Assembly (NCBI GenBank): GCA_004335835.1 | Contig: RWJK01001285.1 | Location: 2,487 to 14,142 of the forward strand | Source: Scenedesmus sp. ARA3 | Taxonomy: Eukaryota; Chlorophyta; Chlorophyceae; Sphaeropleales; Scenedesmaceae | Length of the DNA: 11,656 nucleotides | Reading direction: 5' to 3' | Part shown: positions 408 to 11,219 of the stretch, in pieces | Numbering within the stretch: position 1 is the stretch's first letter | Layout of the letters: every line of letters begins with the position of its first letter | Translations under genes and position numbers: made by a program | Notes under the pieces: model-generated | The model's database searches: none | The model's input: the letters and a program-made list of their open reading frames with translations, nothing else | Told to the model about the DNA's origin: nothing

Positions 408-1125
408 GCCAGCAGTGACAGGTAGCCAGGGCGTTGGAGGGAAGGACTGGCGCCGCTGGCGCAGGTGCGGGCTACAGCCTAGTGCATGCAGCTGAGCCTA
501 GATCACCTGCATGCGTCCAGAACGCAGACATTGCGTTTGCATGACTGTTTCTGCCTCTGAATTTTGCAGCAGTTCTGCTTGTGCTGGGGATGGGTGATGT
601 TGGTGTCAGAGTAGTCTTGGCAGAAACCCTCCTCACGATGACCAGAGGCCACAATAAAGTCCCAGCATACTGCTTAAAGATACTTGAAACACGGCTGCAT
701 TCTGCAACAATGCAGGACCAAGGGACTGAGTCATGTTACGCGGGTTTGGGGCTCGAGCTGAAGGGCGCTTCTGGGGCGTACATAGCTCATTGCGAGGCTG
801 CAGTTCCCTATCCTTCCAAATTCGTCGTGCTTGCACGGCGGATTGGTTTTATCACATGATGAGCGGATCAATCAGCCCTGTGGCTGAGATGTGGCCGACC
901 ACCCAACCTTGTTACAAGTGGTCACATATCCAATCTGAACCTAAAACCAAGGAAGTCAAATACTGTATCGCCCCTGCCGGATGCCTGTACTGGCCGGCAG
1001 TTTGTTGGGCCCGCCGTCTTTGTTGCTGCAGCTCTTGCGCCCGTTGCCTATTGGTTTACGATATGTATTGTTTATGTTTCTCGTCGTTGTTGCGGCCAGT
1101 TGACTCTCCGGGCGCCTGCACGCGC
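408..1125. promoter_or_regulatory. Spacer between divergent gene starts; possible bidirectional promoter
   Basis: This spacer lies between the minus-strand ATG at 407 and the tentative plus-strand ATG at 1126. From about 580 to 1100 it is visibly poorer in CAG and TGCATG repeats than its surroundings. CCAAT-like words occur near 929 (CCAAT) and 1049 (ATTGG), and an AT-rich stretch at about 1057-1078 could serve as a core promoter for the plus strand. No transcription start can be fixed from sequence, and the open frames here show no recognisable domain. Promoter function is inference from position and composition. Confidence 0.3.
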
Positions 1126-1620
1126 ATGGCAGCTGCAGCAGCAGCACCACCAGTAAGCACAGAAGAAGTGCAGCCAGCTGCGCTGGGGATGCGAACACAG
1201 GTAAAGCGTGTTGATCAGGTATATCAAAAGGTAAGAAGTACAGTCAAGGCAGCAGCAGCGTCTTCAGCTCCACGCAGAGTGCACACTGGCATCCAGATCA
1301 GCATGAATGTAGGTGGCCTTTCTGACAGCGTGTGTGCATGCCACCTGATGCCGAACTGATCCTGGCTGGTGCTGGGTGCGGGCTTCAAACCCGTAGCGGC
1401 CGGGAGGCCGAGTGGTTCGATTCCACCTGATCGGCGGCTCAAGGATTCGCAGCAGCAGCAGCAGCAGGCTAGTCAGTGAATGATGCTTTTGCCGCCGCTG
1501 TATGTGTGTGAACATGCAGCACTGCATGCCTGCAGAGAAGGGTTCACATCTCGCATGTGTTTTCAGGTGACCACCCTCTACGGCAGCACAGCGGCTTCCT
1601 GCATAGCTCGCCACTTGTAG
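1126..1620 (+). CDS. Tentative small two-exon gene, 52 residues, function unknown
   Basis: Exon 1 (1126-1230) starts at an ATG in good context (gcgcATGGC). It encodes MAAAAAAPP, a short acidic and polar stretch, then MRTQVKRVDQVYQK, which looks helical. It ends at a strong donor, AAAAG|GTAAGA. Two further phase-0 donors lie in frame at 1201 (GTAAAG) and 1219 (GTATAT). The best acceptor is GTTTTCAG at 1559-1566. Exon 2 (1567-1620) then adds 17 residues beginning VTTLYGS and ends at TAG. A TGTAA motif follows 16 nt after the stop, where green algae often place the poly(A) signal. The putative 336-nt intron contains the tRNA-Sec gene. I recognise no family. An alternative donor at 1616 (GTAGGA) could extend the gene. 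The segment could also be 5' transcribed sequence with no protein product. Confidence 0.3.
1311..1346. repeat. 7-bp inverted repeat just upstream of tRNA-Sec
   Basis: AGGTGGC (1311-1317) is perfectly complementary to GCCACCT (1340-1346), with a 22-nt loop, and ends 3 nt before the tRNA. It could form a hairpin in a 5' leader or be coincidental. Animal tRNA-Sec genes are driven by upstream elements, but no TATA box is obvious in this interval. Confidence 0.5.
1350..1436 (+). tRNA. tRNA-Sec: Selenocysteine tRNA, anticodon TCA
   Basis: This is a complete 87-nt tRNA with the special eukaryotic tRNA-Sec architecture. The acceptor stem has 9 positions (1350-1358 with 1427-1435); seven are Watson-Crick pairs, with A1355/A1430 and T1357/T1428 mismatched. 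The D-stem is 6 bp (1361-1366 with 1371-1376) around a 4-nt TGGT loop. The anticodon stem (1378-1382 with 1390-1394) carries loop CTTCAAA, with TCA at 1385-1387. The long variable arm is a 5-bp stem (1397-1401 with 1406-1410) with loop GGGA. The T-stem is 4 bp (GTGG/CCAC) with loop TTCGATT. The discriminator is G1436 and CCA is not encoded, as usual in eukaryotic nuclei. It would be charged with serine, phosphorylated, and converted to Sec-tRNA that decodes in-frame UGA in mRNAs carrying a SECIS element. No mismatch suggests a pseudogene. It lies within the putative intron of the 1126-1620 gene, on the same strand. Confidence 0.95.
1487..1490 (+). terminator. TTTT, possible RNA polymerase III terminator for tRNA-Sec
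   Basis: This is the first run of four T residues downstream of the tRNA, 51 nt after its 3' end and beyond a short (CAG)n tract. The distance is longer than usual for a pol III gene, so the primary transcript would carry a trailer of about 50 nt. Confidence 0.4.
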
Positions 1621-6363: not shown

Positions 6364-6802
6364 TCAGCAGCAGCAGCCATGCCAGCCTGTTGCAATGCTG
6401 CCCGCCGCTGCGCTGCTGTGTGTGTTTGCCACACCTGGGAGAGCACGCGGGTCCCGCAGCTGCTTCAGTTCAAACAGCATCCGCTCAACCTCTTGGGCTT
6501 GCTGCTGCAGCGCTTCCACGACAGAGTTGATGCGGCCCCCATTGCTGACGCAAGCAGCTGCTGCCGGCGTCGCCGGCGGCAGCACACCGCATGGTCAGTT
6601 GTGTGGCAGCAGCAGCTGCTGCTGTGCCTGCATCGGCATGCACAGGATGGTCTGCTGCTGCGGCGGCCGTGGCGGCAGCATAGCAGGGAATCCTGAGCAT
6701 GGAGGGGCGGCCAGCTCCCCTGCTGCCGCAGACAGAGCAACGCCGGCAGCTGCCAGCTCCTGCATGATCATTGCCTCCAGCTCATCATCCGTGGCCTCAA
6801 AG

Positions 6803-6840
<38 letters not shown>

Positions 6841-7099
6841 GGCGAGTGACGCGCCGCCGAGCGCCGGTGCTATGTATGTGGGCGCAGCGGCTGCGCTGCA
6901 TGCGCCGCTGGCAGCGCATGGGCCGCTGGCTGCGCCTGCCAGGGACTGATTGATTGCCTCGATCAGCAGAGAGTCCAGGTGGCTCTCATCATCGTCATCA
7001 CCATCATCATCATCATCATCATCATTACCAGCATCAGCATCATCATTGCAGCTGGGTGAGCTGGCCAGGCAGGCGGCGGCTGTGCCTGCTGAGCAGCTG

Positions 7100-7143
<44 letters not shown>

Positions 7144-8794
7144 AGACTGCCACCAGGCGTCCGCCAGCGATGCCGCCGCAGCTGCTGCAAAGGAGCTCTC
7201 AGAGCTCGACAGTGCGGATGGCAGCTGCAACTCGCACATGTTCGCCGGAGTAGCTACTGTTGCTGCAGCTGCTGCTGCTGCTGCTGGCACTCCTGCAGGG
7301 ACTGCCAAGGCAGCAGGCATCCAGTAGGCGCTGCCACAGCTGTGTGTTGCTGCGCACGCCTCCATGCCAGCAGTACCGCTGCAGCTGTTGCTGCCTGAGT
7401 GTGGCATGCTGTGCATGCCATCTGCTGTTGGTGCCCAGTTGAGGTGCTGCAGGCTGGCACAACTGCCTTGCTGTATTTCAGTTGGCAGCTCCGCAGCTGG
7501 GAACAGCTGCTGCTGCTGCTGCTCAGACAGCAGCAGCATCTCCAGCTGCCGCCTGCTGCGCCGCGTCTGTCTGGTGGTGGCCAGCACTTCTGGCTGCAGC
7601 TTTCGCTTGTCAAGGCTTGTGCGGCAGCTCCTGTGAGCGGCAGAGCAGGCAGCAGCAGCAGTGTTACTTGCCAGCCTGAACAGCGTGTGATCAGTTTGTT
7701 GCATGACGGGCAGTAAGCGTGCTTGTCTAAACAATGCAGCGATGTGCTGTAAAGATGGACAGTCTAGCATGAAAAATGCAAAGCAGCACACCTTCAAGCA
7801 TTGCTTGCTGTGCTGCCGAGTATGCGCAGCTAGAGGCACCTTGCAGGGGTGAGGCAACACAGCACAACACTGCAGCTCCTCCGCCAGCTGCTTCTGCTGC
7901 TGTGGTCGCATGCTGCGCTGGAAGTTGGCTGTTAACATGGAGTTTGCAGAGTTTTTAGCATATGAAGCAGATGGAGGTGTCACCTAAGCCGTGTGTGGGC
8001 TCACCTCTTGTGGCCTTTGAACTCTGCCAGGGGCTGCATCTTGCCGCACTGCTGGCAGAAGCGGTGCAGGGCGTCACCAGCTCCGCGGAGTGACACGGCA
8101 TCAGCCTGCGCGGCAACCAGTGCGCGGACATCTTGGGGTCATTTTTTGGTTGTTTGGGGGTTGATTTGCATCATGTTTGCATGGCCTAGAGTGTGCTCGG
8201 GTGGTGTGTTGCTCCCTTGCGTGACTGGCAGCAATCAGGCGCCAACCAACGTGATATGTTCAGCAGTGCGCAGGCGAGTACGGACGCTGTTCAACCTTCT
8301 GCATAGTTTTCTTTGAACTGCAGGGTGCTGGTGGCGCAGTGCAGCTGGCATTGGATACGTCAGATGGTGATTCGTGTTTCACAGGGTGCAGCCGCTGCAC
8401 TGCTGCTGATGATGAGGCTGGCAAGGATGCTATCTCACACCCACACACCTTGAGGTGCTCAGAGCACACCGCTTTCTTCTGGCAGTAGACCTTCTCAAGG
8501 GAAAGGTCAGCGTTGCAGCCTTCAATCTGCATCAACAGCAGGCATGAAGCACAGACGGTGATCAGCCAGGGGATGTACAGGCCCTGAGGGGACAGCGTGG
8601 CATGTCAGCTGCCATTGAATGATGACATGGCAGTGCGTGCAGCCTGACCGCGTGGTCATATTGAGTTCGAACATTTAAATAAGTCAAGCGCGCACTGAAG
8701 GTCTGATGGACACGAGACTCACCTGGCAGGGCCTCCACTGCTGTTGTTTGCCTGGCGCTTGGTGCTGCTGGCAGATAGTGCTGTCAGACGACAT
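6364..8794 (-). CDS. SBP-box zinc-finger transcription factor, five exons, 472 residues
   Basis: Nuclear DNA-binding regulator; SBP domains recognise GTAC-core sites. Modelled exons: 8794-8723, 8526-8449, 8105-8005, 7630-6644 and 6544-6364, with introns of 196, 343, 374 and 99 nt, all GT..AG. The start is an ATG in good context (taccATG). The SBP domain spans about residues 22-111. Zinc site 1 is C23-x4-C28-x16-C45-x2-H48, the spacing of CRR1/SPL7-type SBP proteins. Zinc site 2 is C67-QQ-C70-x3-Q74-x11-C86, where position 74 is normally His. It continues KRSCRTSLDKRK, and a basic RQTRRSRR at 104-111 is a likely nuclear localisation signal. The remainder is low complexity: Q13, several Ala tracts and an Asp tract (about 287-298) followed by LLIEAINQSL (305-314). 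A second acidic amphipathic segment lies at 361-376, and a probable coiled coil at 418-444. These may be activation and dimerisation regions (inference). No ankyrin repeats were found. The exon 4/5 junction is the weakest; without it, exon 4 ends at TGA 6595-6597. No TGTAA signal lies near the 3' end, so more 3' exons are possible. Confidence 0.85.
6807..6838. repeat. GCT/GCA tract encoding polyalanine
   Basis: About ten GCT triplets. On the minus strand, in the frame of SBP exon 4, they give a run of about 11 alanines just before the acidic segment starting DFEATDDE. Confidence 0.85.
7102..7140. repeat. (CTG)13 microsatellite encoding polyglutamine
   Basis: Thirteen perfect triplets, read as CAG on the minus strand in SBP exon 4 to give Q13 after WWQSE. 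It matches in unit and copy number the serine-encoding array at 178-216, read there in a different frame. Confidence 0.95.
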
Positions 8795-8801
8795 GGTAGG
8801 C

Positions 8802-10264: not shown

Positions 10265-10986
10265 ATGGCTTCGGAAGCCTGAGGCTACCTGCCAGCTGGC
10301 TGGGTGACTGCCATCATGCACCCCTGCTGGTGCATGCGGAAGCTTTGCGAACCCCTAATGCGACAGGAAAGCTATTTTCAGCCCTCAAAAGCAAGGGGCT
10401 AAGTGCGCTCTCCGTGCGCACATACCTGTAACCCATCGACAGCACCTCAGTGTCGCAGGTTCGGAGTTTGACTCTGCCCGCTGAATCAGTGGATTGTAAA
10501 CAGGAACTGCCACAAACTCAGTGGTCTCAAAAAAGGTGTGCCCAATGTTGAAAGCATGGAGAACCACGAGCATCGCAAAGTATGATCTAATGACCGCACT
10601 TGTTACGCACAGGCGAATGACTGATCACACGGCCCGCAGCTAGAACAGTTGTCTTCAAGTGGCAATGCCACAGAGCATGGATTAACAGTGGCAAGTTGGT
10701 TCCACAGCAAAGCATCGTAGGACCTCCAGCAACGCCAGGTGTGAAAAATAGACGTCGTTCGCTGCTCGATATCTGCATCAAGCCGCCAGAGAGACAAAAC
10801 GCAGAAATTTTAATACTCTGTTGCTTGCGATCCGATGACAAGGGCAGCATCTATTGAGCCAACAGGCTGTGCCTTGCCCTGGAGACCACGGCCCTTACCC
10901 TGCGCTGCTGCCCAAATTCTTGTTTTGAACTATTTTCAGGTCAATAACAAGGTGCCGTCTCCCGGGTCCGTGATTTCAGACGCAGG

Positions 10987-11141: not shown

Positions 11142-11219
11142 GGTGTTTTGGCTGAGTGGTAGCGTGCAAGCGTGGTATCCATGAGGTCGCAGGTTCAACC
11201 CGCGGTCTGGTCAAACACA
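11142..11219 (+). pseudogene. tRNA-like sequence (SINE head or tRNA relic)
   Basis: It carries a perfect pol III A box, TGGCTGAGTGG (11149-11159), and a B box, GGTTCAACCCG (11192-11202), at the normal tRNA spacing of 43 nt. A 3-bp D-stem GCT/AGC surrounds a 7-nt loop. GTGTTT (11143-11148) can pair with AAACAC (11213-11218) as an acceptor stem. The T-stem works only with a shifted 5-nt loop and an A/C mismatch, and no proper anticodon arm forms. It is therefore not a functional tRNA. It is probably a tRNA-derived SINE head or a decayed tRNA gene. Confidence 0.55.

Follow-up and report, generated by a model that had tools for sequence, protein, structure and literature searches.

The window analysed here, a stretch of 11,656 nt (positions 2487-14142 of contig C937), contains at positions 1350-1436 of its forward strand a complete eukaryotic selenocysteine tRNA (tRNA-Sec), an ordinary member of a known family. 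We estimate at roughly 0.93 the probability that the gene is nuclear, looks functional and encodes the tRNA[Ser]Sec of a Scenedesmaceae-like green alga. The simplest account of the data is a standard tRNA[Ser]Sec gene, present in two dispersed copies, in an organism with a small selenoproteome. At the level of sequence, the tRNA is accompanied by its partner genes (PSTK probably among them), by a UGA codon at the Sec site of a glutathione peroxidase (GPx) gene and by a SECIS-like hairpin.

Structure of the tRNA-Sec gene

ARAGORN called a single tRNA gene in the window, tRNA-Sec (tca) at 1350-1436 (+), and the covariance model RF01852 matched 1350-1435 (+) with 78.8 bits (E = 2.8e-15), covering all 91 model positions. 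The first-pass annotation had proposed a complete tRNA-Sec gene here, and every hallmark that it named was recovered when pairs were counted against the structure line of the RF01852 alignment. The gene spans 87 nt including the discriminator G73 (G1436). Its acceptor stem pairs a 9-nt 5' strand (1350-1358) with 1427-1435, seven of the nine positions being standard pairs and two being the mismatches A1355/A1430 and U1357/U1428, both of which had been predicted. The D arm (1361-1376) has a fully paired 6-bp stem (1361-1366/1371-1376) and a 4-nt loop. The anticodon stem (1377-1382/1390-1395, 6/6 paired) closes the 7-nt loop CTTCAAA with the anticodon TCA at 1385-1387, and the long variable arm (1397-1410) consists of a 5-bp stem (1397-1401/1406-1410, 5/5 paired) and a 4-nt loop. 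The T arm (1412-1426) has four paired positions out of four (1412-1415/1423-1426) and a 7-nt loop, giving the 9+4 acceptor/T geometry, and holds GGTTCGATTCC at 1414-1424, which we take to fit the B-box consensus. No CCA is encoded at the 3' end of the gene in the window; none is expected in eukaryotic tRNA genes. Upstream lies an 11-nt leader, TGCCACCTGAT (1339-1349), and the first TTTT on the 3' side, a candidate but distant Pol III terminator, is at 1487-1490.

The cloverleaf has a folding energy of -38.6 kcal/mol, only 0.5 kcal/mol above the unconstrained minimum of -39.1 kcal/mol. Because 21 of 200 shuffled sequences folded at least as well as this minimum, folding energy by itself says little, and the claim is carried by the covariance-model score, which at 78.8 bits against a gathering score of 47 is not the pseudogene score that the first-pass annotation had named as a reason to abandon the assignment. 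A BLAST search of window 1300-1480 against phage records returned 11 records at E 7, taken as chance.

The gene shares with eukaryotic tRNA[Ser]Sec (RF01852), for example that of Chlamydomonas and of animals, the TCA anticodon, the 9+4 arrangement, the D-stem, the variable arm, G73 and the absence of an encoded CCA. The U-U mismatch at acceptor pair 8 is likewise shared with the family and is also present in animal tRNA-Sec, whereas the A-A at acceptor pair 6 (1355/1430) is an additional departure from pairing. By its legend, Figure 3 of PMC2375036 draws an algal tRNA-Sec, and a passage of PMC5330540 calls the discriminator G73 essential.

The tRNA-Sec pathway of Pol III transcription, serine charging, PSTK, SepSecS and eEFSec/SBP2 is established for eukaryotes. 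On this pattern, the gene would be transcribed by Pol III from the internal B box at least. Serine would then be loaded onto the tRNA and phosphorylated by PSTK, and SepSecS would use selenophosphate to convert the phosphorylated Ser-tRNA. eEFSec and SBP2 would bring the product to the UGA of SECIS-bearing mRNAs, such as that of a Sec-GPx.

Selenocysteine machinery in the assembly

The first-pass annotation had asked for a search of the assembly (87.3 Mb, 1,567 contigs) for EFSec, SBP2, SecS, PSTK and SECIS elements, and had regarded an absence of EFSec, SecS and PSTK as fatal to its proposal. SepSecS and eEFSec exons and an SBP2-type domain were found; PSTK is only probable, and the SECIS part is answered by a SECIS-like hairpin on which the Rfam model is silent. 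SepSecS, eEFSec, SPS and an SBP2-type domain thus co-occur with tRNA-Sec in one assembly.

A search of the genome itself gave five SepSecS exon matches on contig C1156 (best E = 1.2e-42), and the best PDB match of a SepSecS exon was 3hl2 (E = 1.8e-39). One exon match crosses a TGA at its end, which was taken as intron. Splicing the gene by eye gives a protein that shares 99% identity, from end to end, with a 575-aa protein in public data; the source contigs of the latter are no longer than 2,646 nt, as would fit a transcript. The spliced protein is 89% identical to that of Tetradesmus obliquus, followed by Scenedesmus, Monoraphidium and Chlamydomonas (best 120 of 1,594 matches), so that, as judged by SepSecS and among the matches listed, Tetradesmus obliquus stands closer than Chlamydomonas and is the nearest relative with a name. 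On this basis the window is most likely nuclear DNA from a green alga resembling the Scenedesmaceae. In a literature search, whose ranking was driven by other terms, Tetradesmus obliquus was not named among the matches listed. The SepSecS locus itself (C1156:34000-40359, stretch L037) contains exon pieces in extra copies, with LPQEGWDEAT..LLLQ occurring several times and KLAAHLAGDALRIAGLAD repeated, which suggests exon-scale tandem duplication.

For eEFSec, the model TIGR00475 gave 17 matches in the assembly; all stayed below the cut-off, and by eye the majority are other GTPases. Exons on C730 look eEFSec-like by eye (LQFTLVDCPGHASLIRTIIGGAQIID), and a 109-aa exon among them matches the PDB eEFSec entry 5izk (E = 9.2e-31) and PF21208 (E = 2.5e-11). 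L7Ae-family domains were matched 11 times, and the one on C821 matches SBP2 in the PDB with E = 5.6e-12 (next best 3.3e-4). By eye, the L7Ae domains at C821:17003-17281 (L064) and C1396:54296-54595 (L065) are both SBP2-like, the second being split by a serine run. They are possibly an SBP2 pair; SBP2 is the best PDB match only for C821, the best matches of the C1396 domain being L7Ae proteins. The matched PDB entries for eEFSec, SepSecS and SBP2 are presumably human proteins.

The PSTK candidate on C955 began as a weak genome match (E = 0.0198) whose pieces show a P-loop, VDDINHYRSMRYE and FIECP. A PDB search with one 81-aa piece came back empty at E <= 1. When the exon pieces are joined, their best NCBIfam match is TIGR03575 (eukaryotic PSTK; E = 2.9e-12), with 46.5 bits that lie far below the whole-protein cut-off of 382, and they score 28.7 bits against PF08433, over its cut-off of 22. 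PSTK is therefore probably encoded in the assembly. A further weak PSTK match on C639 was dropped, as it has a helicase motif by eye.

Selenophosphate synthetase (SPS) was matched 10 times, on C1026 and C1459, and both loci have Cys at what we take to be the Sec/Cys site. The two genes differ (C1459:76500-84000, L045; C1026:85000-94000, L046): one is SelD-like with GGGCGCK, and the other lies inside a longer frame with RCGGCGAKVG and may be a fusion.

A GPx gene with TGA at the selenocysteine site

PF00255 matched at eight places on four contigs; the GPx active site has Cys on C1327, C1320 and C1420, and TGA on C18. The C18 gene reads NIASE-TGA-PLQ at the Sec site and continues across an intron with NVNYPGLRTLY. 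Spliced by eye, with Cys written for the TGA, this frame matches PF00255 (GSHPx) with E = 1.3e-31. A point against is that a proline directly follows the Sec position, where GPx usually has glycine. The C18 GPx is a probable UGA-encoded selenoprotein, which gene models ending at UGA would cut short.

A SECIS-like hairpin lies at C18:9700-9736 (L035:5201-5237), ~340 nt after the inferred GPx stop near L035:4859. It consists of A-TGAC, a 10-bp helix, an AAA-bearing loop and C-TGAG (ATGA...AAA...TGA), an arrangement that we take to be the SECIS core layout. A fold-based scan of L035:4801-7600 (+) returned this hairpin as its sole element, at -20.2 kcal/mol, and when the 1,500 nt downstream of GPx were dinucleotide-shuffled, hits at -15 kcal/mol or lower arose in 8 of 200 cases and at -20 kcal/mol or lower in none of 200. 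The same kind of scan over both strands of 12 stretches (189,652 bases) gave 21 distinct hits, eight at or below -15 kcal/mol and three at or below -20 kcal/mol; from these three, about 0.02 such hits would be expected by chance per 1,500 nt. The GPx hairpin is the weakest of the three, the stronger hits, at -25.5 kcal/mol in the SepSecS locus and -23.9 kcal/mol on C161, being read as chance. A stricter first SECIS scan downstream of GPx found nothing, and the Rfam SECIS model found no element at E <= 5 in five stretches including L035 with its GPx. When a 101-nt segment was folded, the minimum contained helix II but lacked helix I (z = -1.94, a stability matched by 9 of 200 shuffles).

That the tRNA is a relic in an organism no longer making selenoproteins is extremely improbable. 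The selenoproteomes of Sphaeropleales are small, 0-5 proteins according to a part of PMC7539508, and a part of PMC6627142 reports Monoraphidium neglectum to be without PSTK; several blank searches here would also fit a relic. A Sep15/SelM search of the assembly gave no match, and no Sec form was seen among the Rdx, TGR-like and SPS matches read. Rdx is represented by one exon on C1351, and no CxxU exon was seen by eye in the stretch read. The TGR search gave 13 matches on four contigs (C909, C161, C748 and C202); no GCUG ending was found at the TGR-like 3' ends of C909, C161 and C748, and by eye the C909 and C161 candidates look like glutathione reductases. Against a relic stand the two intact tRNA-Sec copies, the detected SepSecS, eEFSec, SPS and SBP2-type domain with a probable PSTK, and the GPx with its TGA and SECIS-like hairpin. 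This GPx likewise supports the expectation of the first-pass annotation that the organism encodes selenoproteins and that an in-frame UGA is not always a stop.

A Sec-decoding apparatus, together with at least one probable UGA-encoded selenoprotein, is indicated for this Scenedesmaceae-like alga. This fits the portions of PMC6627142 and PMC7539508 that bear on it; in the former, full Sec machinery is reported for the sequenced genomes of the three core chlorophyte classes, except Monoraphidium neglectum.

A second copy of the tRNA-Sec gene

The tRNA-Sec family search of the assembly, in which 53 of 5,924 first-look candidates were scored, gave two matches at E <= 0.001, both with 78.8 bits and over the cut-off. 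The second copy, on C1507, is identical to window 1339-1437 over 99 nt, comprising the 11-nt leader, the tRNA and one further base. A DNA search with window 1300-1500, in which common words were skipped, found no further copy, the only extra match being one of 24 nt (E = 0.34) beside the C1507 copy. Beyond the 99-nt block, the best upstream flank score was reached by 2 of 300 shuffles and the best downstream score by 18 of 300, and both best alignments fall on GCA-repeat runs. By sequence comparison, the flanks of the two copies are unrelated, homology stopping 11 nt 5' and 1 nt 3' of the tRNA. The C1507 copy lies antisense to an SNF2-family (SNF2-helicase) gene between two exons; since these exons match PF00176 when joined (E = 8.3e-26), it is predicted to lie within an intron of that gene.

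More than one tRNA-Sec copy at separate loci is also known from zebrafish, Volvox carteri and human (tRNA-Sec2). In the relevant passages of PMC5330540, two copies are given for Volvox carteri and for zebrafish (an identical pair), and a retroposed intronic copy is described in hominids. Volvox is among the copies with compensatory changes in Table 3 of that paper, whereas the copies here are identical. The dispersed identical copies point to a recent copying event or to sequence homogenisation, and allow the duplication of a tRNA-Sec gene to be tested in an alga.

It is very unlikely that one of the copies is an assembly artefact. At 14,142 nt, C937, the contig of the window, is short, and part of PMC5330540 holds that many identical multiple copies suggest artefacts; those artefacts, according to the same part, are identical including 100-bp flanks, whereas the flanks here are unrelated, and C1507 is 219,970 nt long.

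The two copies differ in their candidate terminators: TTTT begins 4 nt past G73 at the C1507 copy and 51 nt past it at the window copy. A T4 within 4 nt is found at 0.7% of positions in the window and 0.3% in the C1507 stretch, and within 51 nt at 7.6% and 3.6%, respectively. By eye, nothing TATA-like stands at -30 of the window copy, which, lacking also a near T4, could be weakly transcribed or not at all. Given the short shared block and the unequal T4 distances, the window copy may have arisen by recent duplication. A stronger form of this reading, in which a recent retroposition or other duplication gave rise to the window copy, this copy is silent or only weakly transcribed, and the active gene is the one on C1507, is a serious if tentative possibility. 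It would account for homology that breaks off 11 nt upstream and 1 nt downstream of the tRNA and for a T4 at a distance that only 0.3-0.7% of positions match in the one copy against 51 nt in the other, and it has a precedent in human tRNA-Sec2, a published retrocopy whose homology, in the section of PMC5330540 that treats it, covers only the mature tRNA. As here, homology in that case is nearly confined to the tRNA and one copy is intronic; it is the C1507 copy, however, that sits in a predicted intron like human tRNA-Sec2. The human copy also shows decay, with C73 and disrupted acceptor pairs (in the same section of PMC5330540), whereas neither algal copy does: both retain every tRNA feature, and the window copy is identical to the C1507 copy, with G73 and every pair kept. 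Inspection by eye revealed neither a target-site duplication nor an A-tail. We continue to prefer a functional-looking gene in the window.

The last 9 nt of the shared leader repeat the tRNA's own 3' strand (CCACCTGAT, 1423-1431). Such a 9-nt repeat ends 10 of the ~11,535 other 11-mers of the window (tRNA region excluded), so the feature is unusual, though spotted after the fact. With a leader ending in CCACCTGAT, the duplicated unit looks like a tRNA-Sec 3' end joined to the next start, that is, a head-to-tail or circular tRNA-Sec form minus its last few bases. An origin of both loci from a processing or concatemer intermediate copied through RNA is nonetheless unlikely. If it did occur, the CCACCTGAT leader may now act as a shared leader or initiation element, and the unequal T4 distances may set different outputs of the two genes.

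Other features of the window

Upstream of tRNA-Sec, window 842-940 (+) matches RF01210 with 33.9 bits (E = 4.8e-4), below the gathering score of 46, and is a possible U13 C/D snoRNA gene. In a genome search with RF01210 (51 of 5,173 candidates scored) the window match was the best of three (E = 4.0e-4); matches below the cut-off were also obtained in 3 of 14 prokaryote controls. The region has TGATGA at 857, CTGA at 935 and, at 905, AACCTTGTTAC, the complement of GTAACAAGGTT, which we take to lie near the 3' end of 18S rRNA. The term 'U13 snoRNA' was absent from the green-alga literature among the matches listed.

Two stretches at 11150-11210 and 10440-10490 are tRNA-like, with B-box-like motifs (GGTTCAACCC at 11192 and GTTTGACTC at 10466). 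They received no ARAGORN call and are possible tRNA-derived SINEs.

On the reverse strand, ~6595-8800 contains exons for an SBP (SQUAMOSA promoter-binding) domain, two of which, when joined, match PF03110 (E = 3.8e-13). Next to them, a 462-aa ORF carries long runs of Gln, Ala and Asp and gives nothing above the Pfam cut-off; it probably forms one gene with these exons. Finally, a 50-nt inverted repeat (9776-9825/9945-9994), 94% complementary with 119 nt between its arms, looks like a foldback or MITE-type element.
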